From an uncultured Luminiphilus sp. (GTDB lineage: Bacteria > Pseudomonadota > Gammaproteobacteria > Pseudomonadales > Halieaceae), in the NCBI GenBank assembly GCA_938091995.1, contig CALKNZ010000043.1, positions 1 through 64,000 of the forward strand: a DNA stretch of 64,000 bases, read 5' to 3'. Positions 3,544 through 63,532 of this stretch are shown one piece after another (the first letter of the stretch is position 1; every line of letters begins with the position of its first letter). The position numbers were made by a program, and so were the translations under genes. Below the pieces are notes generated by a model that was given only the letters and a program-made list of their open reading frames with translations, was not told the origin of the DNA and did not search any database.

Positions 3544-3572
3544 TTGGTAAGCCTGTCTCAATACTTTAAACT
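3544..3572 (+). promoter_or_regulatory. Putative sigma70 promoter for the glutaryl-CoA dehydrogenase gene
   Basis: In the 88-base gap after the dioxygenase beta gene, TTGGTA (3544-3549) and TAAACT (3567-3572) are separated by exactly 17 bases, each matching consensus at four of six positions. The expected transcript start is about 27 bases before the ATG at 3606, which leaves room for the GGAG ribosome site at 3596-3599. Assigned by eye only. Confidence 0.4.
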
Positions 3573-3605
3573 TAAAACATATTGAAGAGAGCATCGGAGT
3601 TCAAA

Positions 3606-36052: not shown

Positions 36053-38524
36053 TTACCAGCTCAGGCGCATACCTCCCTCTATGCCAATCGTCTCGGGCTC
36101 GCCATAAAACGACATCATCCACAGATTGGCCACGGGAAGATCACCTACGCGATACCGTTCGTCTGTGAGATTTTTACCGTATAGACGCACCCACCAGCGT
36201 CCGTCACGCGCTGTATAAGTGGCCGAAGCATTGACCAATGTTCTCTCGTCGGTGAGGCCGTTATCGGACCCCGGGACTGAGGTGTAGGCATAGACGGCCT
36301 CGTCCTCGTAGTTCACATTCAATGCCAAATCGAGATAACCCCCAGCGAGTGGCAAGTTATAAAGAAAATCGAGGTTCCAGGTAGTCTCGGGCGCCCGGGC
36401 GACGGGACTTCCTGTTAAATCGGCGTCGATCGTCCCATCAAAATTGGTATCTGCCTCAAAAGACTTAAACTCAGCATCCAGCATCCCAAGACTTCCCATG
36501 ACAGTGAAGTTGTCGGTTAATAGCCAGGCGGCCTCTAACTCTAAACCAGTGACTTCAATCTCAGCGGCGTTGAAGTAACGAGTCTCTTGAAACTCACTTT
36601 CATCGATTCCATCACCGTCACGGTCTGCCGTAATTCGGGCCAGCAGTTGCTGCTGAGAATCATCGTAGGTGACATAAAACCCCGTTAAATTCAGGCGCAG
36701 CCGGTTATCGAGGAACTCCGAACGCAGTCCCAGCTCAAAGGAGTCTGCAATCTCTGGATCCGTCGGGCGCGCCTGTCTAGGTTCAATGGGGTTGCCACTG
36801 GTGCCCGTCTGATCGTTATAACCACCACTCTTAAAGCCCCGAGCATAGGTGGCATAAGTGTAAAGGTCATCGGTGGCCTGGTAGCCCAAATTCAAACGCC
36901 AGGTAGGCTCGCTCCAGCTTTGTTCATCCTGCACCACCCCGACAGGGTATTTGGTGAAATCTGCCGCCGCAATGGGCTCTCCAAGAACCTGCCAGGTCAA
37001 TGACGGATCGAACCCTCCATTCAGTGCTTGGACGAACACTTGATTTCGCCCTGTCCACTTTTTCTTCTCATGGGTATAGCGTATGCCTGCGCCCAGAGTA
37101 AATTTTTCAGTTAGATCAAAAGTCCCATCCAAATACAACGCTTCTGCGGAGGCATCCTGACCGTTGGAGAGGATCTGTGGGTTGTTGTTAAAGTAAAAGG
37201 GATCGCCAAAAGCCAAGCCTGAAGGGATCGTCATATCCACAAAGCCCAGCACCTGTGCCACGGTGAATGCCGTTTCGTCTTGCTGGTAAAAGACCCCGCC
37301 CACCCAATTGAAGGCTCCGTCTAGATCCGACGCAATACGCAGCTCTAACTGAGTCGTTTCACGGACATCCTGTCGATTGGCATCAAACAATGACACCGGA
37401 CCAACCTCACCAGTGTAGGTGCTGGGAAGCTGAGAGTCAGTCTCTCTGTAACCGGCAAAAGCACTCACCTTGTAATCGCTATTGAGGTCCCAGTCGACGT
37501 TTAAATAATACCCATCGACGTCGATTTGATGGCCTGCCTCCATGTTCAAAAGAACGTCATTGCGGTTGGTTATCGCTGCATTATCGAGGGGGTCACCAGC
37601 ATCACGAGTAAAGCCCAGAGTATTCCAGAGATAGTCAGTGTCAGTTGGCGTATTGTTATAGGATGGCGGAGCATCACTATCGTCACGCACCATTTCGTAC
37701 GCGAGGTTAATGTCTAGCGCATCCGTGGGCTGCCAACGCAGCTTAAATCGGCCACTAAATACATCATCACCACCTACATCGGCACCATCCCCCTGCCCTG
37801 TGGCGCCGGCCAGTGGAAAACCTACGCCAAAATCTGTGACGGGGCCGTATACCGCACTGTTCGAGTACCAGCCGTCTGATTTCATGTAAACACCGGCCGC
37901 TCTTAACGCCATGTTTTCGCCCAAGGCAAGGTTAAGAATCCCTTGGCCCTCATAGCGACCGTACTGTGCCACCTGTCCTCGTACATCTAAGAAATTTTGA
38001 TCCAGTTCAGGGCGACTCGTTTTAACGTTAATAGCTCCCCCAGTTGTGTTTTTACCAAAAAGTGTACCTTGGGGGCCTCGAAGAATTTCAACGCTGGCGA
38101 TATCGAGCATCTCGATATTAGCCGTTTGAATATGTGGAATAACGAAGTCATCAACGATTACCCCCACTTGATTTTCGTAGTAGAGAATAATTCCGTTCTG
38201 ACCCACACCGCGAATCGCAAAGTTTGCAGAATTGAAACCGGGTTGCTTGCCCGCCACTACATTGGGCGCATATTTGGCAACGTCCAGCAAATCTCGAGGT
38301 ACAGCCCTTTGTATCTGCTCTGCGCTAACTTGAGTCACCGCAATTGGGGTTGACTGAATATCCGTCTCGGCTCGACGGGTGGCCGTCACCAAGACTTCTT
38401 CAAGCCTCGCCTCCTCTTGCCCAGAGGCTGGCACGGCAACGCTCAGTAACGCGGAAGCCACAGCCACAGCCAGTGGTGTGAGAGGCAAGGCGCTATCGCC
38501 GCAGGAGCTTGTCAATGTTTTCAT
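36053..38524 (-). CDS. TonB-dependent outer-membrane receptor (first copy)
   Basis: This 823-residue receptor should import a specific ligand across the outer membrane using TonB energy. A signal peptide ends near VAVPASGQ. A TonB-box-like segment (LEEVLVTATRR) precedes the plug domain with ILRGPQGTLFGKNTTGGAI. The remainder is a beta barrel ending in the aromatic terminus MRLSW. It belongs to the large group found in sphingomonads and marine gammaproteobacteria, whose ligands include aromatics, steroids and cofactors as well as siderophores. No iron-uptake genes are nearby; the neighbours are catabolic. It is transcribed divergently from the AhpD-quinoprotein-cupin operon. Confidence 0.93.
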   Translation of the reverse strand: MKTLTSSCGDSALPLTPLAVAVASALLSVAVPASGQEEARLEEVLVTATRRAETDIQSTPIAVTQVSAEQIQRAVPRDLLDVAKYAPNVVAGKQPGFNSANFAIRGVGQNGIILYYENQVGVIVDDFVIPHIQTANIEMLDIASVEILRGPQGTLFGKNTTGGAINVKTSRPELDQNFLDVRGQVAQYGRYEGQGILNLALGENMALRAAGVYMKSDGWYSNSAVYGPVTDFGVGFPLAGATGQGDGADVGGDDVFSGRFKLRWQPTDALDINLAYEMVRDDSDAPPSYNNTPTDTDYLWNTLGFTRDAGDPLDNAAITNRNDVLLNMEAGHQIDVDGYYLNVDWDLNSDYKVSAFAGYRETDSQLPSTYTGEVGPVSLFDANRQDVRETTQLELRIASDLDGAFNWVGGVFYQQDETAFTVAQVLGFVDMTIPSGLAFGDPFYFNNNPQILSNGQDASAEALYLDGTFDLTEKFTLGAGIRYTHEKKKWTGRNQVFVQALNGGFDPSLTWQVLGEPIAAADFTKYPVGVVQDEQSWSEPTWRLNLGYQATDDLYTYATYARGFKSGGYNDQTGTSGNPIEPRQARPTDPEIADSFELGLRSEFLDNRLRLNLTGFYVTYDDSQQQLLARITADRDGDGIDESEFQETRYFNAAEIEVTGLELEAAWLLTDNFTVMGSLGMLDAEFKSFEADTNFDGTIDADLTGSPVARAPETTWNLDFLYNLPLAGGYLDLALNVNYEDEAVYAYTSVPGSDNGLTDERTLVNASATYTARDGRWWVRLYGKNLTDERYRVGDLPVANLWMMSFYGEPETIGIEGGMRLSW

Positions 38525-38861
38525 ATCGCAGTGGCCTCTTTATCGTTTTTTTAACTGCCTTACATAGAGTATTCATGTTAGTTCAGAAAAAAACAAACTT
38601 CTCCGAGCGGTATACGCCACGAGAAACGAGTACCCCGCAACGCCAATTAACAATAACCAACCTTCGCCATATTCGAGTCCTAAGAATTGAGACCTTAGAA
38701 TTAGCAAAAAGCAGGCTTAATCTTTCAAGTAATTATTAACTGTGGCCTCGAGAGGTGTCATAGCAGCGGTTAAGACCCCGATTTTTCGCCCAGTTAAGGT
38801 TGATTAATAAGATCAAACTACTACCACCCGAGCCAACAAGTGAATCGATCAACAGCCGACA

Positions 38862-38871
38862 AGAATATTCT
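38862..38871. promoter_or_regulatory. Perfect 10-bp palindrome in the divergent region
   Basis: AGAATATTCT at 38862-38871 is a perfect palindrome, and it lies between CGATCAA (38846-38852) and TTGATCG (38875-38881), which are inverted copies of each other. It could be an operator but could also be chance in an AT-rich stretch. Confidence 0.25.
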
Positions 38872-38918
38872 GTATTGATCGCAGATAATTGGTAAGTTAG
38901 CGCATTGGCATCCTGTGA

Positions 38919-38934
38919 TGCCGCCACGGCGGCA
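38919..38934. promoter_or_regulatory. 16-bp dyad upstream of the AhpD-quinoprotein operon
   Basis: TGCCGCC and GGCGGCA face each other across two bases, about 113 bases before the AhpD-like ATG. The loop is too short for an RNA hairpin, so a dimeric DNA-binding regulator is more likely. Inference. Confidence 0.3.
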
Positions 38935-39046
38935 AAGTCGGGGGTTGAAGTGAGGTTGCGCAGCCAACGTTGTACTGACTGTCACCTAAGGCGAAGCTGC
39001 CGATCGATTGAATACGGATGAAAACACAGCGTCATTGAGGTCAACT

Positions 39047-39637
39047 ATGAGCAGAATAAGTTTCGTCCCCACCGACGAATGGCCCAAGACATTACGCGAC
39101 TTTGCTCAAGCCGACGCCGCCAGCAATATCGAATTGGGGATCACGCGGATGCTGGCCCATGCGCCAGGGGCGGCCATGGGCCCTCTTCAGTTTGGGGCCG
39201 CTCTGGGGACTAATAGAACCCTGCCAGAACGACTCATCGAACTGATGCGTTTGCGAATAGCGTTCCACAATCAATGCCGCAGCTGCATGGCCATTCGCTA
39301 CTCATCCGCCGAAGGCAGTTTCGACGAGACCACCGCTTGTGCTTTGGAGCGCCCCGAAATACCCAGCAACCTGTCGAAACCTGAACAGCTTGCAATTGAG
39401 CTAGGCGACCGATTTGCAACGGACCATCTCACCATCGATGGTGAATTTTTTGACCGGCTCAAAGTGTCTTTCAGCGAACCTGAAATTATGGAACTTCTTA
39501 TGCACTGCGCGCTTTATGTCGGTATGGGGCGGTTGGCTGCCGTAGTAGATATGACCGAAGACCTCCCCAATGGCTTTGCAAAACCCTTTGGTGAAAACGT
39601 TAAGCTATCTGCTGATAAACCCATCTCCGTTGCATGA
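39047..39637 (+). CDS. Carboxymuconolactone decarboxylase / AhpD-like protein
   Basis: This 196-residue protein of the AhpD/CMD fold has the redox pair Cys77-Arg-Ser-Cys80 (FHNQCRSCMAIRY), preceded by LPERLIELMRLRIA, typical for the family. Members are peroxidase-type or decarboxylase-type; with an intact CxxC a redox role is more likely. The ATG at 39047 has GAGG at 39037-39040 six bases upstream; an in-frame TTG at 39008 is not favoured. Its stop overlaps the quinoprotein start (ATGA), so the two are coupled. Confidence 0.88.
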   Translation: MSRISFVPTDEWPKTLRDFAQADAASNIELGITRMLAHAPGAAMGPLQFGAALGTNRTLPERLIELMRLRIAFHNQCRSCMAIRYSSAEGSFDETTACALERPEIPSNLSKPEQLAIELGDRFATDHLTIDGEFFDRLKVSFSEPEIMELLMHCALYVGMGRLAAVVDMTEDLPNGFAKPFGENVKLSADKPISVA

Positions 39638-41688
39638 GTTCACCTATGAACAACTGGCCCACTTTTTTCATCATCCTCGTCGCACTTACGAACTGCTGGT
39701 CAAATTATGCTGCGGGAGAAACTGCCGACTGGCCACTACCGGGTGGACAGGCTGGGGGCGGACATTTCAGCCCGGCAACGGGTATAACTCCAAAAAATGT
39801 GAATAAACTCGCGATAGCGTGGGCTCACCGGTCCGGAGATTATCAAGAAGGCGCCAACTTTCGTGATGGGTTGGAGTCTGGCCTCGCACTGCAATCTTCC
39901 TGGCAAGCGACGCCAATTCTGGTCGGTGACAATCTCGTTATTTGTACACCGTTCAATCGCATCATTGCCGTGAGTGCCGCAACGGGCGAGCAAAAATGGA
40001 GTTACACCCCCGACATTAATCTCGATGATTACGCAATGCCTCGCTGCAGGGGCGTCACCCAATGGCAGCATCCCGACAATAATAGCCCGACAGAAACCTG
40101 CAGCACCATCGTTATAGCGCCACTCATGAATGCCAAGGTAGTCGGCCTTGATGCTCGCACAGGGGAGCGCTGCAACTTTGGCACTGTGACTGAGATTAAT
40201 TTGCGCGAAGGTTTACGACCCCATACTCCGGGTGACTACACGTTAAATACCCCTCCCGCAATTTTGGGCAACTTAATGATCACCGGCGCGTCGGTCGCAG
40301 ATAATATTTCAACCGACGTCCCCAGCGGGGTCGTTCGAGCCTATAGCTTATTAACCGGCGAGCTCAGTTGGGACTGGGATCCGGTAGCCCCCAGAGCGGG
40401 GTCCGCAGATCAAAATACGGGCGAAGCTGACGGTAATCTGGATACAAAAAGCCAACTTCCTGATACTACCTTGACAGCGGTCGCACAGAATCAAGGTGGG
40501 CCATACCAACCGGGAACCAGCAATGTCTGGTCCTACATCTCGGTGGACGAAGCGCTTAATCGCGTCTATGTACCCACGGGCAATACATCACCCGATTACT
40601 ACGGAGGTCACAGAAATGGCTCTGATTTTTATTCGAGCTCGGTTGTCGCCCTAGAAGGTCATACCGGTAAAGTGATCTGGCATTACCAGACGGTTCGCCA
40701 CGATATCTGGGATTTCGACGTACCATCCCAACCCACTCTATTTGATGTCGCAACTGAAACTGGTGTGGTTCACGGCTTAGCCCAAACAACGAAACAGGGT
40801 TATGTATTTCTGCTGGATCGAGTCACCGGCGAGCCCTTATTTCCTGTCATAGATCAGCCGACACCCCAGGGTACCGTGCCCGGAGACTACACGGCCGCCA
40901 CGCAACCAGTTCCCACCAAGCCGCGGTCATTACTGGACCTCCCCGGGGATCAAGACGAGGTATGGGGGCTCACTTTCTGGGACCGCAAGGCCTGCGCCAA
41001 GGTATTGGAAAACATACGCTATGAAGGTCCTTTCACGCCAACCTCTTTGGAGGGCTCCTTGCACATGCCCAGCGCTTTTGGCGGGCAAAATTGGGGAGGG
41101 CCGGCATTGGATCCCCAGCGAAATATTCTCGTGGTGAACACCCAGCATGTGGGTACGATCGTGCAATTACTGCCGCGGGAAGCATGCGCTCCCGGTGCCG
41201 GCCCTGAGCCCATCGCTCATGGCCCGTTTCTACAGGAACCTTCGGAAGGAACACCTTATTGCGACCGTCGCTGGCTGGGCTTTGTCTCGCCGCTAGGTGC
41301 CCCCTGCTCACCACCACCCTGGGGAACCCTTGCCGGCATCAACCTGACCACCGGTGAAGTGCAATGGCAGGTCCCGCTGGGCACCTCTCGAGACATGGCA
41401 CCCTTCCCGTTTTGGTATATCAAAGGCGCCCCCAATATAGGAGGGCCCGTGACGACCGCTTCTGGACTCACCTTCATTGCCGCTACAACCGATCGGTATG
41501 TGCGGGCTTTTGCCACCGAAACGGGCGATGAGCTGTGGAAGGGACGTTTACCCACAACCGCCCATGGATTACCTATCACCTATCAATTAGCAGATGGCGA
41601 ACAGTATGTTGTGGTTGCCGCAGGGGGACATGCCGCTTTGGGAACCCCTCCGGGTGACCATTTAATCGCTTTCAAGCTCAAGCCTTAA
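39634..41688 (+). CDS. PQQ-dependent quinoprotein dehydrogenase, periplasmic
   Basis: This 684-residue beta-propeller dehydrogenase carries a signal sequence (FFIILVALTNCWSNYAAG). It opens with ADWPLPGGQAGGGHFSPATG, and repeats such as VVALEGHTGKVIWHYQTVRHD are of the PQQ alcohol/glucose dehydrogenase propeller. No CxxCH haem site and no N-terminal membrane helices are seen, unlike membrane glucose dehydrogenase. It likely oxidises an alcohol or polyol in the periplasm, passing electrons to a separate cytochrome. No PQQ synthesis genes are in the window. It follows the AhpD-like gene and precedes the cupin. Confidence 0.9.
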   Translation: MSSPMNNWPTFFIILVALTNCWSNYAAGETADWPLPGGQAGGGHFSPATGITPKNVNKLAIAWAHRSGDYQEGANFRDGLESGLALQSSWQATPILVGDNLVICTPFNRIIAVSAATGEQKWSYTPDINLDDYAMPRCRGVTQWQHPDNNSPTETCSTIVIAPLMNAKVVGLDARTGERCNFGTVTEINLREGLRPHTPGDYTLNTPPAILGNLMITGASVADNISTDVPSGVVRAYSLLTGELSWDWDPVAPRAGSADQNTGEADGNLDTKSQLPDTTLTAVAQNQGGPYQPGTSNVWSYISVDEALNRVYVPTGNTSPDYYGGHRNGSDFYSSSVVALEGHTGKVIWHYQTVRHDIWDFDVPSQPTLFDVATETGVVHGLAQTTKQGYVFLLDRVTGEPLFPVIDQPTPQGTVPGDYTAATQPVPTKPRSLLDLPGDQDEVWGLTFWDRKACAKVLENIRYEGPFTPTSLEGSLHMPSAFGGQNWGGPALDPQRNILVVNTQHVGTIVQLLPREACAPGAGPEPIAHGPFLQEPSEGTPYCDRRWLGFVSPLGAPCSPPPWGTLAGINLTTGEVQWQVPLGTSRDMAPFPFWYIKGAPNIGGPVTTASGLTFIAATTDRYVRAFATETGDELWKGRLPTTAHGLPITYQLADGEQYVVVAAGGHAALGTPPGDHLIAFKLKP

Positions 41689-41700
41689 AAGGAAAAGAAC

Positions 41701-42132
41701 GTGACCCGAAAAGGAATCAGCACCACTGAACACGGCGACATTCTAGCAGACACCACAACGATGGAGTGGCTTGATGTGGGGGGAGGAACTCACTTTCAAG
41801 TATTGCGGCTGTGTGAACAAACGGGCCAGTGGGCCTTGTATGTACACATGGCCCCCGGGGCTCGCTTTCAAGCACACCGTCATGAAGGCACAGGTCAATT
41901 TTTTGTCACCAAAGGAGAACTTATCTACGATGCCGGCCGTGCCAGACCGGGCACCTACGGATTCGAACCGATTTTTGCTACCCACGTCGACGCGCACTGT
42001 GTTGAAGAAACCGAAATGCTGTTTTTAGGCGAAGGTGCCGTGACCTATTTTAAAGAAGACGGCAGCATTGACTACGTTTTCAATGCTCGCTCACTAGCAG
42101 ACGCGTTAACCCAGCAGGTGAAACAAACATAG
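41701..42132 (+). CDS. Cupin protein of the 2,4'-dihydroxyacetophenone dioxygenase / diketone-cleaving type
   Basis: This is a 143-residue single-domain cupin with a GTG start. Candidate metal ligands are His59 and His61 (AHRHEG), with a further His95/His99 pair (THVDAH), fitting the three-His iron site of enzymes that cleave C-C bonds next to carbonyl groups (2,4'-dihydroxyacetophenone dioxygenase and the diketone-cleaving enzyme Dke1). The segments WLDVGGGTHFQVLRLCEQTG and PGTYGFEPIFATH resemble that family. It is 12 bases after the quinoprotein. A role in cleaving a ketone made by the quinoprotein is inference. Confidence 0.75.
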   Translation: MTRKGISTTEHGDILADTTTMEWLDVGGGTHFQVLRLCEQTGQWALYVHMAPGARFQAHRHEGTGQFFVTKGELIYDAGRARPGTYGFEPIFATHVDAHCVEETEMLFLGEGAVTYFKEDGSIDYVFNARSLADALTQQVKQT

Positions 42133-42152
42133 CGCAGGAGCAACTGCCCCAG

Positions 42153-43325
42153 TCAATTCTGTATGAAGTCCGCTAACGCCTTAAGCAGCTGAGCCCCCTG
42201 CGCGCCGTTGACCCAGCGGTGATCGCATCCCAGGGTAATATCGAGGCATTCCTTGGGTTCAAGGGTTTGCGTCTCTGCATTCCATACAGCCTGTATTTGA
42301 AGCATACCAACAGATAGCACCATGACTTGCGGCGGCGTCACCATGGCCGTGAAGGCAGTCACTTCGTACATACCCAAATTACTGATAGTAATCGCTGCAG
42401 GCTGCTGATCGACGGCCGTTAGGCGACCTTGGCGGGCCCTATCCACTATCTCAGCAACTCGCTGCCCCAGCTGTGCAATCGACTCATTAGGCGCATCATC
42501 AATTACAGGAGCCGATACAGCCCCATCCGTGCGGGAAACGGCCAAGGCAACATTGAACCCCGGCACCGGACGAACGGCATCACCTTGAAGCTGAATGTTT
42601 AATTCAGGATGGCGAGCCAATGCAGCGCGCAAACCCTGAATCAACATCAGCGTAATCACGCTGCTTAAATTAGGGTTGTCACGTTTCACTGCGGCTATCG
42701 CACTGGCCACATCAAGACGCCGCTGAATATGAAAAAGTGGCACTGAATTCTGAGCATCAACCAGAGTTTTAGCGATGCGATTTTGAGTTGCTGACAGTGT
42801 CTGAGCACTGTTCCCTGAATCAGTTTTAGTACTCGCGATAGCTCGATCAATATCTTCTTTCAAAATACGTCCATCATGACCCGTACCGGTAACGTCTGCG
42901 GTGGAAAGCCCGGCCTTTTCAAGCTTGCGGCTGAGAGCAGGACTGATTTTTGCGGTTGGGGATGCGTTACCCTGAGCGGTTGCGAGGTCGCTCGAAGCAC
43001 TCGTCTCTGGCTCTGCAGTCAGTATTTCAGCCGTGGTTTGCGCGGCGATAAAAGCCTCAAGCTCGGCGGGTTCAAAGTTTGCCAGGGCAAGCACCCCAAT
43101 AAGGGTTCCCACCGGTAATTCTTCCCCCTCTGGCACAAGAATCTTTGCCAAAGACCCAGAGACTCGCGCCTCAAAGCTATTGACGATTTTATCAGTTTCA
43201 ATATCGACGAGCTCTGCTCCAGCGGCAATCTGCTCGCCTTCCTCGTAACGCCAGGCGACAATTCTGCCATGGGTCATCTCGATGCCCCATTTCGGAATGG
43301 TCACCGCTTCAAATTGTTTACTCAC
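42153..43325 (-). CDS. 2-oxo acid (or acetoin) dehydrogenase E2, dihydrolipoyl acyltransferase
   Basis: This 390-residue E2 has one lipoyl domain (lipoyl Lys46 in DIETDKIVNS), one peripheral-subunit-binding domain (KISPALSRKLEKAGLSTADV) and a catalytic domain. The C-terminal active-site motif reads DHRWVNGAQGA: His369 is kept, but the Asp of HRxxDG is Asn373. The ATG lies inside the end of the cytochrome-quinoprotein gene (8-base overlap). E1 alpha and beta are upstream in the same run; no E3 gene is seen. Acetoin-type complexes are the best guess among the 2-oxo acid family, but a branched-chain or pyruvate substrate cannot be excluded. Confidence 0.9.
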   Translation of the reverse strand: MSKQFEAVTIPKWGIEMTHGRIVAWRYEEGEQIAAGAELVDIETDKIVNSFEARVSGSLAKILVPEGEELPVGTLIGVLALANFEPAELEAFIAAQTTAEILTAEPETSASSDLATAQGNASPTAKISPALSRKLEKAGLSTADVTGTGHDGRILKEDIDRAIASTKTDSGNSAQTLSATQNRIAKTLVDAQNSVPLFHIQRRLDVASAIAAVKRDNPNLSSVITLMLIQGLRAALARHPELNIQLQGDAVRPVPGFNVALAVSRTDGAVSAPVIDDAPNESIAQLGQRVAEIVDRARQGRLTAVDQQPAAITISNLGMYEVTAFTAMVTPPQVMVLSVGMLQIQAVWNAETQTLEPKECLDITLGCDHRWVNGAQGAQLLKALADFIQN

Positions 43326-45216
43326 TCACTAACCCCTCGGTGACTTCGGCGGGCGACAGGCCAAAAACTAATAAAACGTTCCCGGGCATACGACTGCCAA
43401 ACTGATATCCTGAATTCACCAATAAGTGTCCATTGGCGACAACCGGACCGTCAGATTCGATAGACCCACCGCGACCCAGTTCTCCCGATACGGTTTCAAA
43501 CTCCGCCAAGGAATTGTATTTCCAGCGAACCTCACCAGATGCGGCATCATAGACACGCAACAGACCATCAAAACCTCCCGCAAATATAAGGTCATTGGAG
43601 CTTGTCGCAGCGGCGGATAGACCCGGATCGCAAGCTGGTTTCTTATTTTCTGGACACTCGTCCAGTGCCGGTGTGTACCAAAGAACCGACCCCGTTAAGG
43701 GGTCCAGAGCATGTAGTCCCGGAAACCCCGGGTCGTTAGGAAGACCTGGAAAATAGGTATCTGCGATGGGAACAAACAAAGTATCCGCGTTGGCGGTCAT
43801 GCCCCAGTGCACACCCCCAGCGTAACCCCCTCGACCGAGTTTTTTATGCCAAGTAATTTTCCCTGCCGCATTGGGGTCGAGAGCATAGACATCACCGCTT
43901 TTTTGTCCCACCAGCAGCAAATCTCCCGTCGGGCCTTGCCAGAGAATGGTCGCAGCGCCAATATCCAAATCAGGACCATTCTCCTCGGGGCAATTGCCTC
44001 CGCCACCAATGAAGCAGGCCATATTCCAAGCATCCCCAGCCATGAGTTGCTGTGACCAAACAATATCTCCGTCGCTTAGGCGCATAGCAACGACAGCATC
44101 ACTCGTCTTCACCGCTGGAGACGTATAACCCTCTCCCGTACCGACATAGAGCAGCCCACGCTGTGCATCAATGGTGGGTGAATTCCAAACGGGCGCACCC
44201 GCAGGTGCCATTCGCTTCGCGCCCGCCGGATTGATTTCACCTGTCTCATGGGGTGTTGTCTGGATCACAAAACTGTTCCACAAGAGGGTGCCATCATCGG
44301 CGTCTAGGGCGGCAACGCTACCGCGGAAGGTGCAGCAGGGGTAGCCAGGGTCAGCCGCAGTTGCCCATTCAGATGATGAGATGGGCACATAGAGTCGCCC
44401 CTCATAATATTTGACCGATCCTGTGATCGTGGCGTCAGTATGGGTCGACACAGACTTGTTCCAGACAGGTAATCCAGTTCGTGCGGAAACCGCATGGACT
44501 CGCGCTTTGAAATCACCAAAAAAAAGCACGGTATCCGATGGGTGGCCCATATCAGCCACCGTTAGGCCATTGCGAACTTCCGCGCCCGCTTCGTACTGCC
44601 AATGGGCGCAGCCGCTATTTAGATCCAACGCATAAACAGTGCCCTGCTGCGAGCCTACAAATACCGTATTGCCATGAACTAGGGGTTGGGAGCGTGCCCG
44701 TGTAGCGCCAGGATAAGCAAAGGCCCATTTTAGTGCTAACTGGTCTAAGGTATTTGGGCTAATGCCCGCTGCTTCAGTGTCTTGAAAGCGCTGGTTTTTA
44801 ATACCCCCACCCCAACCATTCCACTGCGGGTTCTTATTTGCGAGAACTGGCGTAATCTCATTACCGCATGCCTTAACCTCATGGGCGACCGAATCGACAG
44901 TCTCGCTAAGATACTGAGCAATTTGAACACGCTCTTGTGGAGACAAATGCGCCGCTTGCTGACGCATGACCCCTTCTGAAAGTGCGGTGACAATACTCGC
45001 GGTAGACATCATGTTGAAACTAATAGCATGAGGTGCCTTAGGAACTGAACCGTTGTGGCAGTGCAGGCAATTGTTTTGGAACAGGGTGGCACCCGATGTC
45101 ACCTCTTGGTGTGACTCGTTAGTCGCTGACTCAGTCTCAATTATCGCGACAGCCAAACTCGCGGAAGCAAAACTGCACAGAGCAGTGCCCACCAACCACG
45201 CCATCAGTGTTTTCAT
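43318..45216 (-). CDS. Cytochrome c-containing quinoprotein, polyvinyl-alcohol-dehydrogenase-like
   Basis: This 632-residue periplasmic protein has a signal peptide (MKTLMAWLVGTALCSFASAS), a small haem c domain (Cys50-x2-Cys53-His54 in CLHCHNG), then a PQQ-type beta propeller. The adjacent Cys pair in DPGYPCCTFRGSV matches the vicinal disulfide of polyvinyl alcohol dehydrogenase (cytochrome). It probably oxidises secondary alcohol groups and passes electrons to its own haem. The ATG at 45216 has GGGA close upstream; an in-frame upstream start would break the signal peptide. Oddly, it sits between the E1 beta and E2 genes of a cytoplasmic complex and overlaps the E2 start. Confidence 0.9.
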   Translation of the reverse strand: MKTLMAWLVGTALCSFASASLAVAIIETESATNESHQEVTSGATLFQNNCLHCHNGSVPKAPHAISFNMMSTASIVTALSEGVMRQQAAHLSPQERVQIAQYLSETVDSVAHEVKACGNEITPVLANKNPQWNGWGGGIKNQRFQDTEAAGISPNTLDQLALKWAFAYPGATRARSQPLVHGNTVFVGSQQGTVYALDLNSGCAHWQYEAGAEVRNGLTVADMGHPSDTVLFFGDFKARVHAVSARTGLPVWNKSVSTHTDATITGSVKYYEGRLYVPISSSEWATAADPGYPCCTFRGSVAALDADDGTLLWNSFVIQTTPHETGEINPAGAKRMAPAGAPVWNSPTIDAQRGLLYVGTGEGYTSPAVKTSDAVVAMRLSDGDIVWSQQLMAGDAWNMACFIGGGGNCPEENGPDLDIGAATILWQGPTGDLLLVGQKSGDVYALDPNAAGKITWHKKLGRGGYAGGVHWGMTANADTLFVPIADTYFPGLPNDPGFPGLHALDPLTGSVLWYTPALDECPENKKPACDPGLSAAATSSNDLIFAGGFDGLLRVYDAASGEVRWKYNSLAEFETVSGELGRGGSIESDGPVVANGHLLVNSGYQFGSRMPGNVLLVFGLSPAEVTEGLVSE

Positions 45217-45252
45217 TCCCGGGACCCCTTTATCAAAACCCAATTTTTATTG

Positions 45253-46230
45253 TTAGTACGCCAGCGCCTTCTTTGCCGCGCGGACAATGTCGGCAACGCT
45301 CGGCACATAGTCTTTTTCCAAGCAAGGTGTTGCCGGAACTGGAGTATGAGGCGCCGTCACGCGTTGCACCGGCGCATCGAGGTAGTCAAAACCAAACTCG
45401 GCCACCATACCGGAAATTTCGCTCGCCATACTGCACAGCGGGTTGGATTCATCCACCACAACCAAGCGTCCAGTTTTCGAAACACTGGCAAGAATCGACT
45501 CTTCATCTAGAGGCGACAGCGTACGTGGATCGATAACTTCGGCACTTATACCCTCAGCGGCCAATTCAGCCGCGGCCTGCTCAGCCAATACAGCCATTCG
45601 AGATAATCCACACAGGGTAATATCCGTTCCTTCGACAACGGTACGGGCTTTGCCAAAAGGAATGACGTAATCACCCTCAGGCACGTCACACTCGCTTAAA
45701 TAAAGCGCTTTGTGCTCACAGAAAACAACGGGATCATCCTGCCTGATGGCTTCAGCAAGCAACCCCTTGGCGTCCGCCGCGTTGGAGGGAGTTACCACTT
45801 TAATGCCCGGTATTGCAGCGAGCATAGAGTACAAAATTTGCGAATGCTGTGGCCCCGTGCCTTCGCCCGCGCCAATCATCGTTCTAATCACCAATGGTGT
45901 TCGGGCCTGTCCACCAAACATGTAACGAAATTTGGCAATTTGATTGAGTAATTGATCGAGACAGACGCCTAAAAAGTCGATGAACATCAGCTCAGCTACG
46001 GGACGTAATCCGGTTAGCGCCGCCCCTCCCGCAGCTCCCACGATGGCACTCTCTGTAATGGGCGTATCAATGACCCGAGCCACACCAAACTTCTCTGTGA
46101 GGCCCGCAGTAACACCGTAAACTCCGCCCTGACCGCTGGCCACGTCCTCCCCCATAATCACCACGCGATTGTCCCGTGCCATTTCCTCGTGGAGAGTCAG
46201 GTTGATCGCTTCGCGCATAGACATCTTCAT
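45253..46230 (-). CDS. 2-oxo acid (or acetoin) dehydrogenase E1, beta subunit
   Basis: This 325-residue transketolase-like beta subunit has the segments GEDVASGQGGVYGVTAGL, DTPITESAIVGAAGGAAL and the C-terminal half DESNPLCSMASEISGMV. With the alpha chain it forms the thiamine-diphosphate E1 of a 2-oxo acid or acetoin dehydrogenase. The length is that of AcoB/BkdB/PdhB types. Its ATG overlaps the alpha stop by four bases (ATGA). Confidence 0.93.
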   Translation of the reverse strand: MKMSMREAINLTLHEEMARDNRVVIMGEDVASGQGGVYGVTAGLTEKFGVARVIDTPITESAIVGAAGGAALTGLRPVAELMFIDFLGVCLDQLLNQIAKFRYMFGGQARTPLVIRTMIGAGEGTGPQHSQILYSMLAAIPGIKVVTPSNAADAKGLLAEAIRQDDPVVFCEHKALYLSECDVPEGDYVIPFGKARTVVEGTDITLCGLSRMAVLAEQAAAELAAEGISAEVIDPRTLSPLDEESILASVSKTGRLVVVDESNPLCSMASEISGMVAEFGFDYLDAPVQRVTAPHTPVPATPCLEKDYVPSVADIVRAAKKALAY

Positions 46231-47204
46231 TGCATTGCCCTCCCCTCGTAGTTCACATAAACATCGGTATAGAGCTTTTCAGGGGTTGGATCTGCTGCGG
46301 CTAACGCCAGCTCAACGGTACGGTCAAGTTCAGCAAAGATAGCGGCGTCTACTTCCGCAACTGTCTTCACGTCCAGTGATGCCGTACGTGGATCCGCTAA
46401 AAAGTGTGGCAGGGGATCTCCAGCCTCGCGCTGGGCACGCAGTTCAGCCTCGTCACGATAGGCCTGAGGATCCCCCTCAAAATGACCATAATAACGCGCA
46501 GACACCGCCTCTATCGCCGTGGGGCCACCGCCGTTGCGACCTCGCTCAATAGCTTCACGACAGGCCGCATGAACAGCAAAAAAATCAGAACCATCCACCA
46601 CCACTGAAGGCATGCCAAAAGCTCCCGCCCGTTCAGCAATGCGCCCCTCTGGCTTAGGATTACGGGTAAATTCCGCATAAAAATTATTTTCATACATAAA
46701 TATCATAGGCAGCTGTAGTACTACTGCCAAGTTCAAAGCCTCGGCAACTGTCCCTTGGTCAGAAGCACCGTCGCCAATAAATGCCATGGAAACGCCTCCC
46801 GTCTGAAGGGTTTTTGCCGTCAATGCCGCTCCAGCCGCAATCGGTGGACCCCCACCCACAATAGCGTTGGCACCCAGCATGCCTTTGGTCATATCGGCAA
46901 TATGCATCGAGCCGCCTTTGCCATTGCACAAGCCATCTTGTTTACAAGCTAGCTCTAACATCATCCCCTCGAGCTCGCAGCCTTTGGCAATACAGTGCCC
47001 ATGGCCTCGGTGAGTGCTCGCGATGTAATCATCGTTGGTCATATCGAGGCAAGCACCCACAGCGATAGCCTCTTGATTACGGTACATATGAATAAACCCT
47101 GGCAACTTGCCCTGCTGATATTCAGATCGTATCCGTTCTTCAAATTCACGAATGGTCTTCATCAATCGATAGGCGCGGGTCAGTTCGTTAAGGCTATAGT
47201 CCAT
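46227..47204 (-). CDS. 2-oxo acid (or acetoin) dehydrogenase E1, alpha subunit
   Basis: This 325-residue thiamine-diphosphate subunit has the cofactor motif from GDG (144-146) to NN (173-174), and HRGHGHCIAKG and NGKGGSMHI, as in AcoA and PdhA proteins. The size and the GGSMHIAD segment suit the acetoin-dehydrogenase/pyruvate-dehydrogenase branch. A GAGGA ribosome site precedes the ATG. The gene begins only 26 bases after a strong terminator of the upstream receptor gene, so its own promoter or read-through must supply it. Confidence 0.93.
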   Translation of the reverse strand: MDYSLNELTRAYRLMKTIREFEERIRSEYQQGKLPGFIHMYRNQEAIAVGACLDMTNDDYIASTHRGHGHCIAKGCELEGMMLELACKQDGLCNGKGGSMHIADMTKGMLGANAIVGGGPPIAAGAALTAKTLQTGGVSMAFIGDGASDQGTVAEALNLAVVLQLPMIFMYENNFYAEFTRNPKPEGRIAERAGAFGMPSVVVDGSDFFAVHAACREAIERGRNGGGPTAIEAVSARYYGHFEGDPQAYRDEAELRAQREAGDPLPHFLADPRTASLDVKTVAEVDAAIFAELDRTVELALAAADPTPEKLYTDVYVNYEGRAMQ

Positions 47205-47229
47205 GACTAATCCTCATCTCAATCAAAGG

Positions 47230-47257
47230 AAAAAAAAGGGGCCTGCAAGGCCCCTTT
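47230..47257 (-). terminator. Rho-independent terminator after the second TonB receptor
   Basis: AAAGGGGCC (47235-47243) and GGCCCCTTT (47249-47257) form a nine-base perfect stem with a five-base loop. On the - strand it is followed directly by eight Us (complement of 47230-47237), a textbook intrinsic terminator for the receptor gene ending at 47273. The E1 alpha start lies 26 bases further on. Confidence 0.9.
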
Positions 47258-47272
47258 AACCATACCTATTGT

Positions 47273-49795
47273 TTAAAAATTGTAACCAATTTGAACGCCG
47301 TACTCACGAGGGGCGCCGTGACGGGTAAAGTTCCAAAGTGTTGCAACCGGGTTAGCCGCGACACGATAGGTCTCATTACCGAGGTTTTTACCGTAAACAG
47401 ACACCTCAACACCACCGTTAGGCCCTGTGTAAGTGATGTAGCCATTGACCAAAGTTCGCTCTTCCATCTGGGTATTGGCTTTCTGCACAATGACAGGAGA
47501 ACCGCTCGCATCTGCACCTTGGAAGTTCGCAGGGAACGGACTCGTCTCCGCATCGTCCTGATAGTGCATGTTCAAGTTATACGTCACGGTTGCACCATTA
47601 CGTAGGTCTTGAAAGAACGTTGCACCCAACGCGTAGGTCAACTCTGGTGAAAATGGCACCCGCAGGCCCGACAAATCAGGATTGATGGCATCGCCTGCCG
47701 GCAAGCCAAGATCCGCCGGGTTGATGCCGGGCCTGTAGTCGTCATACTCATGATCGAGGTAGCCCATCATGCCGTCGAGACGGAAGTTATCAGTTACGGC
47801 CCATTGAAATTCTGCCTCAACACCCCTTGCCGTGGAGGTGCCCTCGTTAACCGAGACCGTTTCCTGGAAGGTATTACCCGCAGCGTCCTTAATTGTCACC
47901 ACAGTGTCACGCTGCAAGTTTTCATACTCGGTATTAAACGCCGCCAGATTCAAGCGCAGCGTTCCATCGAGTAAATCAGACTTCAAACCAACCTCAAAGT
48001 TCTCGTTTTCTTCACTTTCATACGGTGAGCACGAAAACTCAGAGCCGCAGGTTTCAGAGAAACCACCAGCGACAAAGCCCGTCGCAAAGCTAGCATAAGC
48101 CATGATTTCATCGGTAAACCGATAATCTGCCACCAATCGGTAGGTCACTTTGTCAAACGTCTTCGAGTTTTTCTGAACGTTACCAAACGCAGATTCTGGT
48201 AGGGGGTTGGTGTAAGGCCCCTGATACTGATCAAGATCAATAATATTACTCACGGGGTTATCCGCAGTGCCCAAGTTAAATCGCTGAAAGTCTTTCTTGT
48301 CTTCGGTGTAACGTACACCGGCACTAATAGTCAGCTGCTCAGTGACATCGAAAGAGCCGTCAACATAGGCTGCCCACGCAGTACGATCCTGCGTGGTCTC
48401 CTGCACTTCGTAACGATTATCGTAAAAATTAGTCGCCGCGAGCGGGCCAAAGAAGCCTAAGTTGCCGAACACGATGAACTCAACGTCATCACGGTAAGCG
48501 GCTACGCCACCGACCCAGTTAAAGGGTCCGTCGAACTGACTGGCCAAGCGAAATTCCTGCTGGAATTGCTCACGTTTGGTATTTCGGCTCGCGTCATAGA
48601 GTGACGTATACGCCTCGCCGGTATAGGTGCTTGCCAAAATCTCATCTTGATCGCGCATACCCGTAATCGACTTCAGCTGATAGTCACCCAAAGTGAACGA
48701 CTGATTTAGGTAGATACCTGAGGCCTCAACTTGGTGGCCACCACTCATGTTGATAATTGCGTTCTGAGTATACGACTGTCCCGTGTTGAAAGGGCTATCC
48801 ACTCCGGCGTCTTCAATGCCAGGGAAGCCAATAACAGGCCAAACATAACCTTCATTTCCAGGAGTCTCGTTAGCGGTCGCCACGGTTTCCGATTGATCGT
48901 CTAAGTATTCAAAAATCAAATCAGCTTCATACCAATCTGATGGCTCCCAGCGAAACTTAAGTTTGCCGGCGAGAACATCTTTACCACCAATATCGGAGCC
49001 ATCGCCTGTTGTTGGATAGGTGCTTTTTATTTCGGCCGTACTGGGATTCCCAGGCGTTGGGAACAAACCATCACTACAAACAAAACAGGTGAACGTGCCG
49101 CCCATGGGTTTGGTGTTGGAATAATAGCCATCCGAATAATCCCGAATCACCGATATGCGCGCTGCCAAGGTGTCGGTCAAGGGCACGTTGAGTGCGAATT
49201 TAAATTTATTCAGGTCACTATCATTACTCGCATAGCGGCCAAAATTGACTTCGACATTACCCGCAACTTCGCCACCGACTTCGGGCTTTACTGTGGTGAA
49301 GGCGATAGCGCCTGCTGTCGTATTTTTGCCAAACAGCGTGCCTTGGGGCCCACGGAAAATCTCGACTTGCTCAATATCAAAGACTTCAATGAACTGCGAC
49401 TGCACGTGGTTAAAGGCGAAGTCATCAACGGTTATACCCACTGATGGATCTTTAGTCACCAAAATCGAAATAAAGCCCGTGCCCCTCATACCACCTGCGA
49501 TAGCATTGAAGCCATTTTGGGGCGTTAGGGTGACATTGGGCGCAAATTGGGCTAACTCAGTCACTGAGTTTTGAAAAGTTTTACTCAGCTGCTCAGCGGT
49601 GATGGTGCTTACAGCGATAGGCAAATCTTGCTGACTGATGTCCCGCTTTGTTCCCGTGACAACGATTTCCTCAAGAGCTGCACCTCCCTCATCTTGAGCT
49701 AGAGTTACCGAGCTTGCGACTAGAGTCGCTACGGCTGTCGCGAGGGCAGAACGCACGAACGTACGGTTGCGCTTAACTGGATTGGGATTATCCAT
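47273..49795 (-). CDS. TonB-dependent outer-membrane receptor (second copy)
   Basis: This 840-residue receptor is related to the one at 36053-38524. A signal peptide (LATAVATLVASSVTLAQ) and a TonB-box-like LEEIVVTGTKR lead into the plug (FRGPQGTLFGKNTTAGAIA). The barrel ends REYGVQIGYNF with the expected terminal Phe. It contains an internal CFVC pair near residue 240 in an extracellular-loop region. It is upstream of, and in the same direction as, the E1-quinoprotein-E2 genes, so its ligand may be their substrate or PQQ; both are guesses. Confidence 0.93.
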   Translation of the reverse strand: MDNPNPVKRNRTFVRSALATAVATLVASSVTLAQDEGGAALEEIVVTGTKRDISQQDLPIAVSTITAEQLSKTFQNSVTELAQFAPNVTLTPQNGFNAIAGGMRGTGFISILVTKDPSVGITVDDFAFNHVQSQFIEVFDIEQVEIFRGPQGTLFGKNTTAGAIAFTTVKPEVGGEVAGNVEVNFGRYASNDSDLNKFKFALNVPLTDTLAARISVIRDYSDGYYSNTKPMGGTFTCFVCSDGLFPTPGNPSTAEIKSTYPTTGDGSDIGGKDVLAGKLKFRWEPSDWYEADLIFEYLDDQSETVATANETPGNEGYVWPVIGFPGIEDAGVDSPFNTGQSYTQNAIINMSGGHQVEASGIYLNQSFTLGDYQLKSITGMRDQDEILASTYTGEAYTSLYDASRNTKREQFQQEFRLASQFDGPFNWVGGVAAYRDDVEFIVFGNLGFFGPLAATNFYDNRYEVQETTQDRTAWAAYVDGSFDVTEQLTISAGVRYTEDKKDFQRFNLGTADNPVSNIIDLDQYQGPYTNPLPESAFGNVQKNSKTFDKVTYRLVADYRFTDEIMAYASFATGFVAGGFSETCGSEFSCSPYESEENENFEVGLKSDLLDGTLRLNLAAFNTEYENLQRDTVVTIKDAAGNTFQETVSVNEGTSTARGVEAEFQWAVTDNFRLDGMMGYLDHEYDDYRPGINPADLGLPAGDAINPDLSGLRVPFSPELTYALGATFFQDLRNGATVTYNLNMHYQDDAETSPFPANFQGADASGSPVIVQKANTQMEERTLVNGYITYTGPNGGVEVSVYGKNLGNETYRVAANPVATLWNFTRHGAPREYGVQIGYNF

Positions 49796-49969: not shown

Positions 49970-51235
49970 ATGATCGAAAACGACAAGATAACTGCGATCC
50001 GGGACCAGCTGGAGGCATGCCAGGCGTCAGGCATTGTATTGACTGAAGTAGACAACGTTGGCTACGCCAGCGGCTTTACGTCGGTCATGGACGGCTGGAA
50101 CCTCATAGAGCCTATTGCCGGGGTATTTGTACCGGCAAACCCCAACATTCCCGTGACGCTTTTTTTACCGGAAGCTAGCCTCATTTCCCTGGTGGTTGCA
50201 CAGCGCGAGGGTCAAGAAATTGTGTATGAGCGACTTCGCACCTACGACATGCTCAATTTTTGTGAAACGGCCCGAGCGCAAGATGCGCATTTGTCGTTAC
50301 CTGTCGACCTCGTTAATCAGCTATCGGTAATCACCCAAGAGGTTGAAGGTCCCTGCGCCCCGACAATTCTAGAAGCCATTGGAGCGTGTCTTCAGTCTTA
50401 TGCATTAGATAACACGACCGTACTTTTCGATGATCTGCGTGTTGCCAACCGGTTGCAACGTCGCCATGAGCAGGTTTGGGAGGATGGTCTCGATGTGATT
50501 TTAGCTTGTCGCTCCATAAAACATGCCGATGAGATCGCATTGCTTAAGGAGAGTGGCCGAATCGCAGATAACATTCTCAAATATACCGTGTCACAACTTG
50601 GTATCGGGGTCCGCTGGAGTGACGTCGAAAAATCTGTTGCCAAGTTTATGATTGATCAGCATGTTGATCCGCTTCCCGGCAGCCCCCTGCTTTTTGGCGG
50701 CAGCTATGACTTGGTCTTTCGGCCCGACCTATTTCGCACCTACTTTGATCGGCCATTTGAGGGCGGTGAAATCACCATATTGGAAACCCAAGGGCGCTAC
50801 CGGAGCTACTGGATTGATATCAATCGGACCGCTCATATCGGCAGAGCCTCACAAGCCTACAAAGACCAGCATGCTTGCGTACAAGAAATTTTTGAGACCC
50901 TAAGCAAAAGGCTAAAGGTCGGCTGCAACTCGGCGGAAATCACTCGCATAGATAATATTAAGGCGGCGCAACGACTTGCTGCGCCTGAAAAGCTTTTAGT
51001 GGTTGTACACTCGGTTGGCAGAGCACCCTTAGAAAGCCCTGTCGCTTTTCCCGGCACTGGTCTACACGCCGCCAAACAAGGCTTTCAAATAAAGAATGGC
51101 ATGGTCATTAGCATCGACTGCCTTTACTTCGGGAGTAAATTGGGTCCCTCCCATATGGAAAATGTATTCCTGGTCACAGCAGACGGCAGCGAGTCTCTGT
51201 ATCACTACCCCCTAGACCTCATAGAAATTATTTGA
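49970..51235 (+). CDS. M24 (aminopeptidase P / creatinase fold) family protein with altered metal site
   Basis: This 421-residue protein has the creatinase N-terminal domain (residues 1-165) and the pita-bread domain. Residues at the five metal positions differ from a normal peptidase: the first Asp is replaced by Glu272 (LETQGRYRSYW), Asp283 is kept (WIDINRT), the His is in VVHSVGRAP (347), the first Glu is Asp383 (SIDCLYFG), and the last Glu397 is kept (HMENVFLV). It may be a creatinase-like, metal-free hydrolase or a weak dipeptidase. A GAGAGGA ribosome site precedes the ATG. It is divergent from the TonB receptor. Confidence 0.82.
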   Translation: MIENDKITAIRDQLEACQASGIVLTEVDNVGYASGFTSVMDGWNLIEPIAGVFVPANPNIPVTLFLPEASLISLVVAQREGQEIVYERLRTYDMLNFCETARAQDAHLSLPVDLVNQLSVITQEVEGPCAPTILEAIGACLQSYALDNTTVLFDDLRVANRLQRRHEQVWEDGLDVILACRSIKHADEIALLKESGRIADNILKYTVSQLGIGVRWSDVEKSVAKFMIDQHVDPLPGSPLLFGGSYDLVFRPDLFRTYFDRPFEGGEITILETQGRYRSYWIDINRTAHIGRASQAYKDQHACVQEIFETLSKRLKVGCNSAEITRIDNIKAAQRLAAPEKLLVVVHSVGRAPLESPVAFPGTGLHAAKQGFQIKNGMVISIDCLYFGSKLGPSHMENVFLVTADGSESLYHYPLDLIEII

Positions 51236-51245: not shown

Positions 51246-51270
51246 CCGCGCAATTGTCGCTATTGCGCGG
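51246..51270. terminator. Hairpin between convergent genes
   Basis: CCGCGCAAT (51246-51254) and ATTGCGCGG (51262-51270) form a perfect nine-base stem with a seven-base loop, between the M24 stop (51235) and the SDR stop (51260), with the right arm inside the SDR's last codons. There is no clear U-run on either side, so it is a terminator-like or transcript-end hairpin shared by both genes. Confidence 0.5.
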
Positions 51271-52081
51271 TGTAACCACCATCGACCAACATTTCAGAAC
51301 CGGTCATAAAGCGCGATAGGTCCGACGCCAAAAATACGATGGCATCTGCAATATCGTCCCCTTGAGCCATATCTCCGATAGGGTGCGCCGCTCGAATCGC
51401 CGCCCTTGCTTCCGCCGGACTGGGTGCGAAGCCCGCTTCACCCAACTCAGTCAAGCATTGCGCAGCGAAGGCTGTATCGACAGTCCCGGGATGGATGGAG
51501 TTAATCCGTAACTGCAAGCCTAAAGCACCAAACTCCACCGCCGCAGCTTTTGTAAACATGCGTACAGCTCCCTTGGTTGCGGAGTAGGCGCTCTGAAATG
51601 CAACGCCCACATTGCCACAAATCGACGACATATTAACAATCGAACTGCGCACACCGGACGTTTGCCCTGCAGTATGAAGATCATCGAGAAAACACTGGGT
51701 CCCCAAAAACATTCCCGTGCTATTGACGCGAAATAAACGGTCCCAATCAGCCAAGGTGGTATCAGCCACGCTCTTAACGACGTCAATTCCTGCATTATTC
51801 ACCAGAACTGACAGTGGACCCCAGTGATCGAGAACCTGCTGCCTTGCCCGCTGCCAACTATCAGGATCACCCACATCTAGAGCGGTTGCCATAGCTACAC
51901 CACCTTTTGCGCGGATAGTATTTACAATGTCATTCAACCCTGCCTCATTGACATCAGTGACCATAACTTTCGCCCCATGCATGGCCAAGGCTTCAGCAGT
52001 GGCAGAACCTATGCCACCGGCACCGCCTGTGACTAGGGCCACACGTGCGCTGCCATCTTTAAATTCCAGTAATTGACTCAT
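51260..52081 (-). CDS. Short-chain dehydrogenase/reductase
   Basis: This 273-residue classical SDR has the cofactor loop TGGAGGIG (18-25), NNAG (95-98), Asn120, Ser152/153, Tyr166 and Lys170 in YSATK. The C-terminus MTGSEMLVDGGYTAQ is the usual SDR tail. It is the last gene of the long - strand run that includes two GST-like genes, a DUF3604 protein and a Rieske oxygenase, and probably oxidises a hydroxyl group in that pathway. Substrate not readable. Confidence 0.9.
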   Translation of the reverse strand: MSQLLEFKDGSARVALVTGGAGGIGSATAEALAMHGAKVMVTDVNEAGLNDIVNTIRAKGGVAMATALDVGDPDSWQRARQQVLDHWGPLSVLVNNAGIDVVKSVADTTLADWDRLFRVNSTGMFLGTQCFLDDLHTAGQTSGVRSSIVNMSSICGNVGVAFQSAYSATKGAVRMFTKAAAVEFGALGLQLRINSIHPGTVDTAFAAQCLTELGEAGFAPSPAEARAAIRAAHPIGDMAQGDDIADAIVFLASDLSRFMTGSEMLVDGGYTAQ

Positions 52082-52115
52082 TATTAGCTGTTCCCTATTG
52101 CTAGCTACTGACTAT

Positions 52116-53039: not shown

Positions 53040-53051
53040 GGGCTCTCCGAT

Positions 53052-57009: not shown

Positions 57010-57012
57010 TTA

Positions 57013-57402: not shown

Positions 57403-57414
57403 CTTTTGACCTCA

Positions 57415-58575: not shown

Positions 58576-58578
58576 AAG

Positions 58579-60994: not shown

Positions 60995-61004
60995 GCCCGC
61001 GATC

Positions 61005-62267: not shown

Positions 62268-62312
62268 ACAGTCCCTCCTCGGGATCGCCACCGTTACTTT
62301 ACGAAGGACCTG

Positions 62313-63527: not shown

Positions 63528-63532
63528 CGTAT

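Follow-up and report, generated by a model that had tools for sequence, protein, structure and literature searches.

Polyvinyl alcohol (PVA) degradation genes encode a PVA dehydrogenase (PVADH) and an oxidised-PVA hydrolase (pvaA and pvaB of VM15C), and we take a pyrroloquinoline quinone propeller, a haem c, and a conserved Cys-Cys pair to be family marks of the PVA dehydrogenases. Dihydrolipoyl acyltransferases (E2) carry the active-site motif HxxxDG. The acetylacetone-cleaving enzyme Dke1 of Acinetobacter johnsonii has the metal ligands His62, His64, and His104, with Glu98 near the metal (PMC4019311). Acetoin:DCPIP oxidoreductase accepts methylacetoin or diketones as donors (PMC12247030). 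We analysed a gene block joining relatives of such proteins in the genome of an uncultured Luminiphilus sp. (Halieaceae). The window, i.e., the whole stretch of DNA analysed, comprises 64,000 nucleotides (contig CALKNZ010000043.1, positions 1 to 64,000), and the block lies between 36053 and 51235. We tentatively read it as a conserved set of genes for the catabolism of an imported, alcohol-bearing compound, in which a 1,3-diol would pass through a β-diketone and an α-dicarbonyl to a lipoyl carrier, and we give this reading somewhat less than an even chance. The block looks like an undescribed catabolic route of several coastal-ocean bacteria, found partly in sphingomonads; none of the publications listed by a literature search dealt with this gene set, subscription papers being mostly outside its coverage.

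Organization of the block

The genome carrying the window comprises 2.88 Mb in 130 contigs and is 80.75% complete. All nine genes named in the preliminary description, according to which two TonB receptors frame quinoprotein, cupin, and E1/E2 genes, were found in place with the domains claimed for them. TonB-dependent receptor 1 (823 residues, 36053–38524, minus strand) shows the plug and β-barrel Pfam domains and is 92% identical to its counterpart at the equivalent site of HTCC2080. On the plus strand follow an AhpD/CMD-like protein (209 residues, 39008–39637; PF02627, 28.9 bits) with the motif HNQCRSCMAIRY, unchanged across the six rows inspected, a pyrroloquinoline quinone (PQQ) quinoprotein dehydrogenase nearest to the glucose/quinate type (684 residues, 39634–41688; PF01011, 675 bits), and a Cupin_7 protein (143 residues, 41701–42132; Cupin_7, 117.5 bits). 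The opposing group on the minus strand begins tail to tail with the cupin gene at 42132/42153 and encodes E2 with lipoyl, E3-binding, and acyltransferase Pfam domains (390 residues, 42153–43325), a PVADH-like quinohaemoprotein with a PQQ propeller and a Cytochrome_CBB3 domain (641 residues, 43318–45243), thiamine pyrophosphate (TPP)-dependent E1 beta (325 residues, 45253–46230; Transket_pyr and Transketolase_C; 350 bits against NF006667, cut-off 321), E1 alpha, assigned to the acetoin-dehydrogenase type by its E1_dh domain and by trees (325 residues, 46227–47204; TPP motif GDG..N at 144), and TonB-dependent receptor 2 (840 residues, 47273–49795; Pfam domains), which is 96% identical to its HTCC2080 counterpart. 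The linked unit runs past 49795, where it had been taken to end, and a plus-strand gene for an M24-family protein of the prolidase/creatinase fold (49970–51235; PF00557, 52.8 bits) is a further linked member of the block. No E3 gene was seen inside the block; one is present elsewhere in the genome (G000:C85).

Conservation within Halieaceae

Among named genomes, a scan with the PVADH-like protein detected three loci, in the marine gammaproteobacterium HTCC2080, a Luminiphilus sp. metagenome-assembled genome (MAG), and a Halieaceae MAG. HTCC2080, which clusters with Luminiphilus syltensis (PMC10100682), carries the genes from SRPBCC and short-chain dehydrogenase/reductase (SDR) through Rieske in identical order at 72–97% identity, with M24 unmatched in the otherwise collinear run. 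Within the genus of the window, we found a recurring run of AhpD, quinoprotein, cupin facing E2, PVADH-like protein, E1 beta, E1 alpha, and TonB receptor 2, either whole or in the portion that each contig holds. Departures from it are an inversion of cupin and quinoprotein (G073), an AhpD gene directly adjoining a fragment of the cupin where the contig ends (G031), a stretch with the PVADH-like gene not matched (G059), and one of two copies broken in several frames (G032). In G008, the cupin copy of an otherwise whole-looking block (L049, 9903–10157; G008:C6) lacks the metal-ligand stretch, and a second copy on contig C29 has an open frame of 148 codons.

A profile built from 14 cupins matched 34 of the 140 family genomes and 6 of the 28 genera at a family threshold of E 1e-12; 23 of the 34 belong to the genus of the window, of which 57 genomes were searched. 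In 29 of the 34 genomes, E1 or E2 is found no more than 12 kb from the cupin (E2 in 29, E1 beta in 24, E1 alpha in 21), one of these, G008, being counted through its decayed cupin copy. Within the same distance are the glucose-type quinoprotein in 23 genomes, a TonB receptor hit by the queries for receptor 2 in 17 (cross-matches to receptor 1 can occur), AhpD in 16, and M24 in 8, all counts being bounded by contig ends and by the length of the fetched stretches. Genera g31, g48, and g30 arrange the block genes differently. The preliminary description had made its pathway depend on conserved gene order in relatives: the order is kept within the genus, and the gene set is kept but reshuffled in the other genera, which is what a functional unit gives. 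The non-chance nature of the block rests on this conservation in relatives, not on a statistic. Wider-spread samples matched 2 of 369 genomes of the class at E 1e-15 (the window's own genome and one 61-bit match) and 1 of 398 of the phylum at E 1e-25 (its own genome); these evenly drawn samples say little about rarity, because the sphingomonad cassettes described below came from a plasmid collection.

Genus g30 (L089, L130, L131) holds in one locus two cupins, three PVADH-like paralogues, E1, E2, and an E3-like gene, together with a haem-c quinoprotein and a P450-like gene. A second PVADH-like paralogue (44%) lies between Rieske and DUF3604 genes in G005 (L037, 2023–3768).

The cupin retains the metal site of Dke1

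The best solved relatives of the cupin are 2o1q (2.1e-9) and 3bal (8.8e-8), followed in third place by ChrR, 3o14 (1.3e-5). The 3bal structure is that of Dke1, the best solved relative with a named activity. By the 3bal alignment, His62, His64, and His104 of Dke1 correspond to H59, H61, and H95 of the cupin, and Glu98 to E89; all four residues are invariant in 19 of 19 rows. The cupin-signature Glu69, dispensable in Dke1, is Gln66 in the window cupin. Grouping with non-enzymatic cupins had been named as a result that would undo the proposed pathway; it was weighed here by ranking and residues, in that 2o1q and 3bal come ahead of ChrR and the metal residues are kept. The cupin is likely a metal-dependent dioxygenase of the Dke1 type with a different substrate. 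In the cupin tree, the sphingomonad cupins join those of genus g30 at 96/97, and most of its deep forks carry no star.

E1 alpha groups with acetoin dehydrogenases

The 29-row E1 alpha tree places ten Halieaceae block rows (excluding g28) and four acetoin-type rows in an 18-row clade supported at 95/90, with two pyruvate dehydrogenase (PDH) and two branched-chain 2-oxo acid dehydrogenase (BCKDH) rows as well as g28_G091 outside it. Acetoin-type operons were labelled by their neighbours, namely 2,3-butanediol dehydrogenase, acetoin reductase, or an annotated acetoin-dehydrogenase E2. The acetoin clade appeared again at 99/94 in a 24-row tree, from which seven rows had been dropped (g28_G091 and TomTYG72 for their long branches, the two BCKDH rows, g31_G108, g48_G159, and Luminiphilus G020) and to which two g30 rows had been added; two PDH and four sphingomonad rows fell outside. 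The window E1 alpha is 49–55% identical to E1 alpha of four acetoin-type operons. With E1 alpha resembling acetoin dehydrogenases, an α-diketone or an acyloin would fit as substrate better than a 2-oxo acid.

The Halieaceae E1 alpha form a single clade at only 70/59 in the 24-row tree. Forcing the 13 block rows of Halieaceae and sphingomonads together was 54 log-likelihood units worse (approximately unbiased test, p 4e-6), and this rejection of a single clade suggests that the E1 partner was recruited separately in the two groups. On the plainest reading, the cupin would have moved between classes and E1 would have been taken up separately. E2 is fast-changing, with 40–78% identity to the window protein versus 78–97% for full-length E1 matches.

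Partly parallel cassettes on sphingomonad plasmids

Querying a plasmid collection with the cupin gave 12 records at E 1e-5, five of which, all from Sphingomonadales, show 44–51% identity. The Croceicoccus M24 protein was matched at E 1e-30 only in five plasmid records, which are the five best cupin records. We inspected the cassettes of Croceicoccus marinus pCME4A9I, Sphingobium RAC03, Novosphingobium SA1, and Novosphingobium PP1Y; the fifth record, a second Croceicoccus, lies outside this inspection. In each of the four, a TonB receptor, an ABM protein, and one or two SDRs share a single run with cupin, M24, both E1 subunits, and a lipoyl protein; a quinoprotein stands beside this run or, in Croceicoccus, at its far end. 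The lipoyl protein is free, about 79 residues long, and stands in place of E2; no AhpD match was seen at these four loci. The sphingomonad cassette is partly parallel to the Halieaceae block, with which it has TonB receptor, cupin, M24, both E1 subunits, lipoyl domain, and quinoprotein in common; the free lipoyl protein, the extra SDRs, the ABM protein, and another E1 lineage are found in the cassette only.

The five metal ligands of M24 metallopeptidases are D, D, H, E, and E. The ligand positions of the block's M24 protein, E272, D283, H347, D383, and E397, are invariant in 12 of 12 aligned rows; the histidine and four acids are kept, and the first Asp and the first Glu are exchanged.

On plasmid pTHN of Novosphingobium THN1 (L113), a PVADH-like gene (43%) stands together with genes for E1, E2, and two TonB receptors, with no cupin match. 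The Niveispirillum and Terrarubrum plasmids (L111, L118) hold acetoin-clade E1 and E2 within runs of SDR, Rieske, MaoC, and ThuA-domain genes, which suggests that E1 of this clade is used more widely in catabolic islands.

The two quinoproteins

The quinoprotein at 39634 reaches 623 bits against TIGR03074, the model of glucose/quinate-type PQQ dehydrogenases, yet stays below its cut-off of 833; ten rows were aligned, the protein starts with an N-terminal hydrophobic stretch, and no membrane domain was seen in a hydropathy scan. In the PVADH-like protein, the haem c and vicinal cysteine pair claimed for one of the quinoproteins were located as a CxxCH starting at residue 59 and Cys-Cys at 303–304. 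Both are invariant in ten rows from nine genomes and in a further seven rows, including the homologue on a plasmid of Sphingopyxis 113P3. The window protein is 33.9% identical to that homologue over 90% of the query (34–36% across comparisons). The 113P3 gene belongs to what we take to be the characterised PVA degradation locus of this plasmid; it adjoins a gene for a 357-residue hypothetical protein, presumably the oxidised-PVA hydrolase, and two genes on lies a c-type cytochrome. The adjoining gene was matched in 0 of 12 genomes, in a search without a positive control.

Neighbouring genes

Beside the block, the window carries a further catabolic run (51260–63554) with SDR, two GST-like, DUF3604, Rieske oxygenase, and thiolase genes identified by Pfam, then AMP-ligase-like and P450-like genes, and open reading frames read by eye as SnoaL- and VOC-like. 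At 398–4790, a run was read by eye as SDR, Rieske alpha-like, small-subunit-like, and acyl-CoA dehydrogenase genes.

Proposed route and alternative explanations

In the 1,3-diol route that we tentatively prefer, the TonB receptors would import the compound into the periplasm, where the PVADH-like and glucose/quinate-type quinoproteins would oxidise its hydroxyls, the former yielding a β-hydroxyketone or β-diketone. A cytoplasmic Fe(II) cupin would use O2 to split the β-diketone into an acid and an α-dicarbonyl in a Dke1-like manner. The acetoin-dehydrogenase-type E1 would load the α-dicarbonyl, or an SDR-made acyloin, onto TPP and then onto the lipoyl group of E2, and acyl-CoA would form via E2, with E3 supplied from elsewhere in the genome. 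The sequences show the gene families, their conservation, the metal-site residues, the clade of E1 alpha, and an E3 gene in the genome; all of the chemistry, its order and direction, the compartment of each enzyme, and the substrate are inferred. The pathway of the preliminary description is partly supported: C–C cleavage by the cupin with E1/E2 as its partner has support as an inference, while the step from a 2-oxo product to acyl-CoA is weakened by an acetoin-like E1 alpha, an E2 reading HxxxNG, and sphingomonad runs without an acyltransferase.

Several observations weigh against the 1,3-diol route. The gate residues Tyr70 and Arg80 and the second-shell Thr107 of Dke1 are not kept in the window cupin, where F67, D77, and A98 take their positions, and this cupin is therefore not Dke1 itself; changing Tyr70 to Phe in Dke1 has only a threefold cost (PMC4019311). 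The window E2 reads HRWVNG, and HRxxNG, with Asn for Asp, occurs in 11 of 11 aligned rows as well as in further rows of the window's genus and of genus g31. The four inspected sphingomonad cassettes contain no acyltransferase gene in the run and no PVADH-like match at the locus. By a crude scan, both window quinoproteins start with a hydrophobic stretch, and the cupin, E1, E2, AhpD, and M24 proteins have no such N-terminal, signal-like stretch, so that the substrate would have to cross the inner membrane from the presumably periplasmic quinoproteins to the cupin; no permease or inner-membrane carrier was seen among the block genes. The distribution of the block is patchy, as the 34 of 140 genomes and 6 of 28 genera given above indicate, and only 21 of the 34 genomes have a PVADH-like gene at most 12 kb from the cupin. 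The cupin stands without E1/E2 in the fetched 5, 14, and 20 kb of G076, G083, and G085, respectively, and no E1/E2 is shown either in G021 and G031, where it sits at a contig end. Linkage is moreover no proof of a common substrate.

A supply of PQQ for the quinoproteins has to be considered as well. Contig C3 of the window's genome encodes both PqqC and PqqE. Of the 34 carriers, 31 were tested for PqqE and only 7 showed it (one of the seven below cut-off), a scarcity that also counts against the route; it was found in none of the eight genomes of g30, g31, and g48. PqqC is missing in 16 of 23 genomes of the window's genus. Several carriers lacking PqqE or PqqC are 96–100% complete genomes, and the quinoproteins of the many carriers without them would need external PQQ. 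Scavenging of PQQ is known (PMC12124388). PqqU as an entry route was rejected, with 0 of 23 matches at E 1e-60 using a curated model and a positive E. coli control; for most genomes the scoring covered no more than the first 32 candidates, which is not a full exclusion.

The transfer from E2 to CoA is in doubt and is the weakest step of an acyl-CoA account. Because E2 carries Asn in Luminiphilus-type and g31 loci and the transferase is absent from the sphingomonad cassettes, the acyl group might leave the lipoyl carrier by a non-standard route, perhaps with M24, in an oxygenolytic module that would have arisen two or more times around one and the same cupin, with different E1 lineages; we regard this as improbable. 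In the version of the preliminary description, the E1 substrate would be a 2-oxo acid and the product acyl-CoA. Such a complex would have its E1 alpha, E1 beta, lipoyl-bearing E2 with E3-binding domain, and an E3 in the genome, and HxxxDG is kept in those E2 rows of the g30, g48, G077, and g28 loci that reach the motif, as in five of six E2 from other operons (the sixth, an annotated acetoin-dehydrogenase subunit, is without it). The window E2 with HxxxNG, however, and the grouping of E1 alpha with acetoin dehydrogenases apart from the PDH and BCKDH rows make a 2-oxo acid rather unlikely. The cupin might instead cleave an α-hydroxyketone like 2,4'-dihydroxyacetophenone dioxygenase, in the breakdown of aromatic or terpenoid side chains, with E1/E2 taking the second fragment. 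The SDR, GST, Rieske, and thiolase genes after the block, the AMP-ligase-like and P450-like genes further on, and similar gene kinds around the Croceicoccus and RAC03 cassettes would suit this chemistry, and 4 of the 12 cupin plasmid records, all distant matches, are annotated as that dioxygenase family. Two 2,4'-dihydroxyacetophenone dioxygenase proteins nevertheless lie far from the cupin on the tree (end branches 8.5 and 6.2), and among its solved relatives with a named activity the acetylacetone enzyme ranks first; we consider α-hydroxyketone cleavage unlikely.

The genes might also be two or more unrelated catabolic modules on one genomic island, with the cupin and E1/E2 acting on different compounds. 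The tail-to-tail meeting of the opposite gene groups, the cupins of G076, G083, and G085, the unmatched PVADH-like gene in the G059 stretch, and the persistence of the G008 block around a decayed cupin copy would all agree with this. Against it, the pairing of cupin and E1/E2 outlasts reordering in several genera and is met again, with E1 of a different lineage, in another class, so that we hold separate modules to be quite improbable. PVA itself as the substrate would be suggested by the likeness of the PVADH-like protein to the 113P3 homologue (33.9% over 90% of the query), but the presumed oxidised-PVA hydrolase gene was unmatched in the 12 genomes (searched without a positive control), and the polymer would not reach a cupin without a signal-like stretch; we consider this highly improbable.

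Comparison with known systems

Halieaceae are numerous in coastal waters and react to blooms of phytoplankton (PMC10100682), and many of their TonB-receptor loci, in our view, lack an assigned substrate. The block names a testable chemistry, from a 1,3-diol over a diketone and an α-dicarbonyl to an acyl-lipoyl group, with enzymes that can be assayed singly. Compared with Dke1, the cupin has a similar length and the three metal histidines with Glu98; unlike Dke1, it shares its locus with quinoproteins and E1/E2, and the similarity is low (35.6 bits), with Arg80 and Thr107 not kept. The PVA degradation genes have in common with the block a haem-c quinoprotein with Cys-Cys and a β-diketone chemistry, which for the block is proposed, but the identity is 34–36% and no hydrolase was matched in the search described above. 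The cupin would replace hydrolysis by oxygenolysis, and the block, if our reading is true, would set beside the hydrolytic PVA route one that depends on oxygen. With the acetoin dehydrogenase system (aco operon), the block appears to share an E1 alpha of the acetoin-type clade; in contrast to that operon, the block shows no gene for E3, butanediol dehydrogenase, or acetoin reductase, its E2 reads HxxxNG, and its E1 adjoins a cupin and quinoproteins. The proposed route would thus give acetoin-dehydrogenase-type E1 a catabolic role beyond acetoin.

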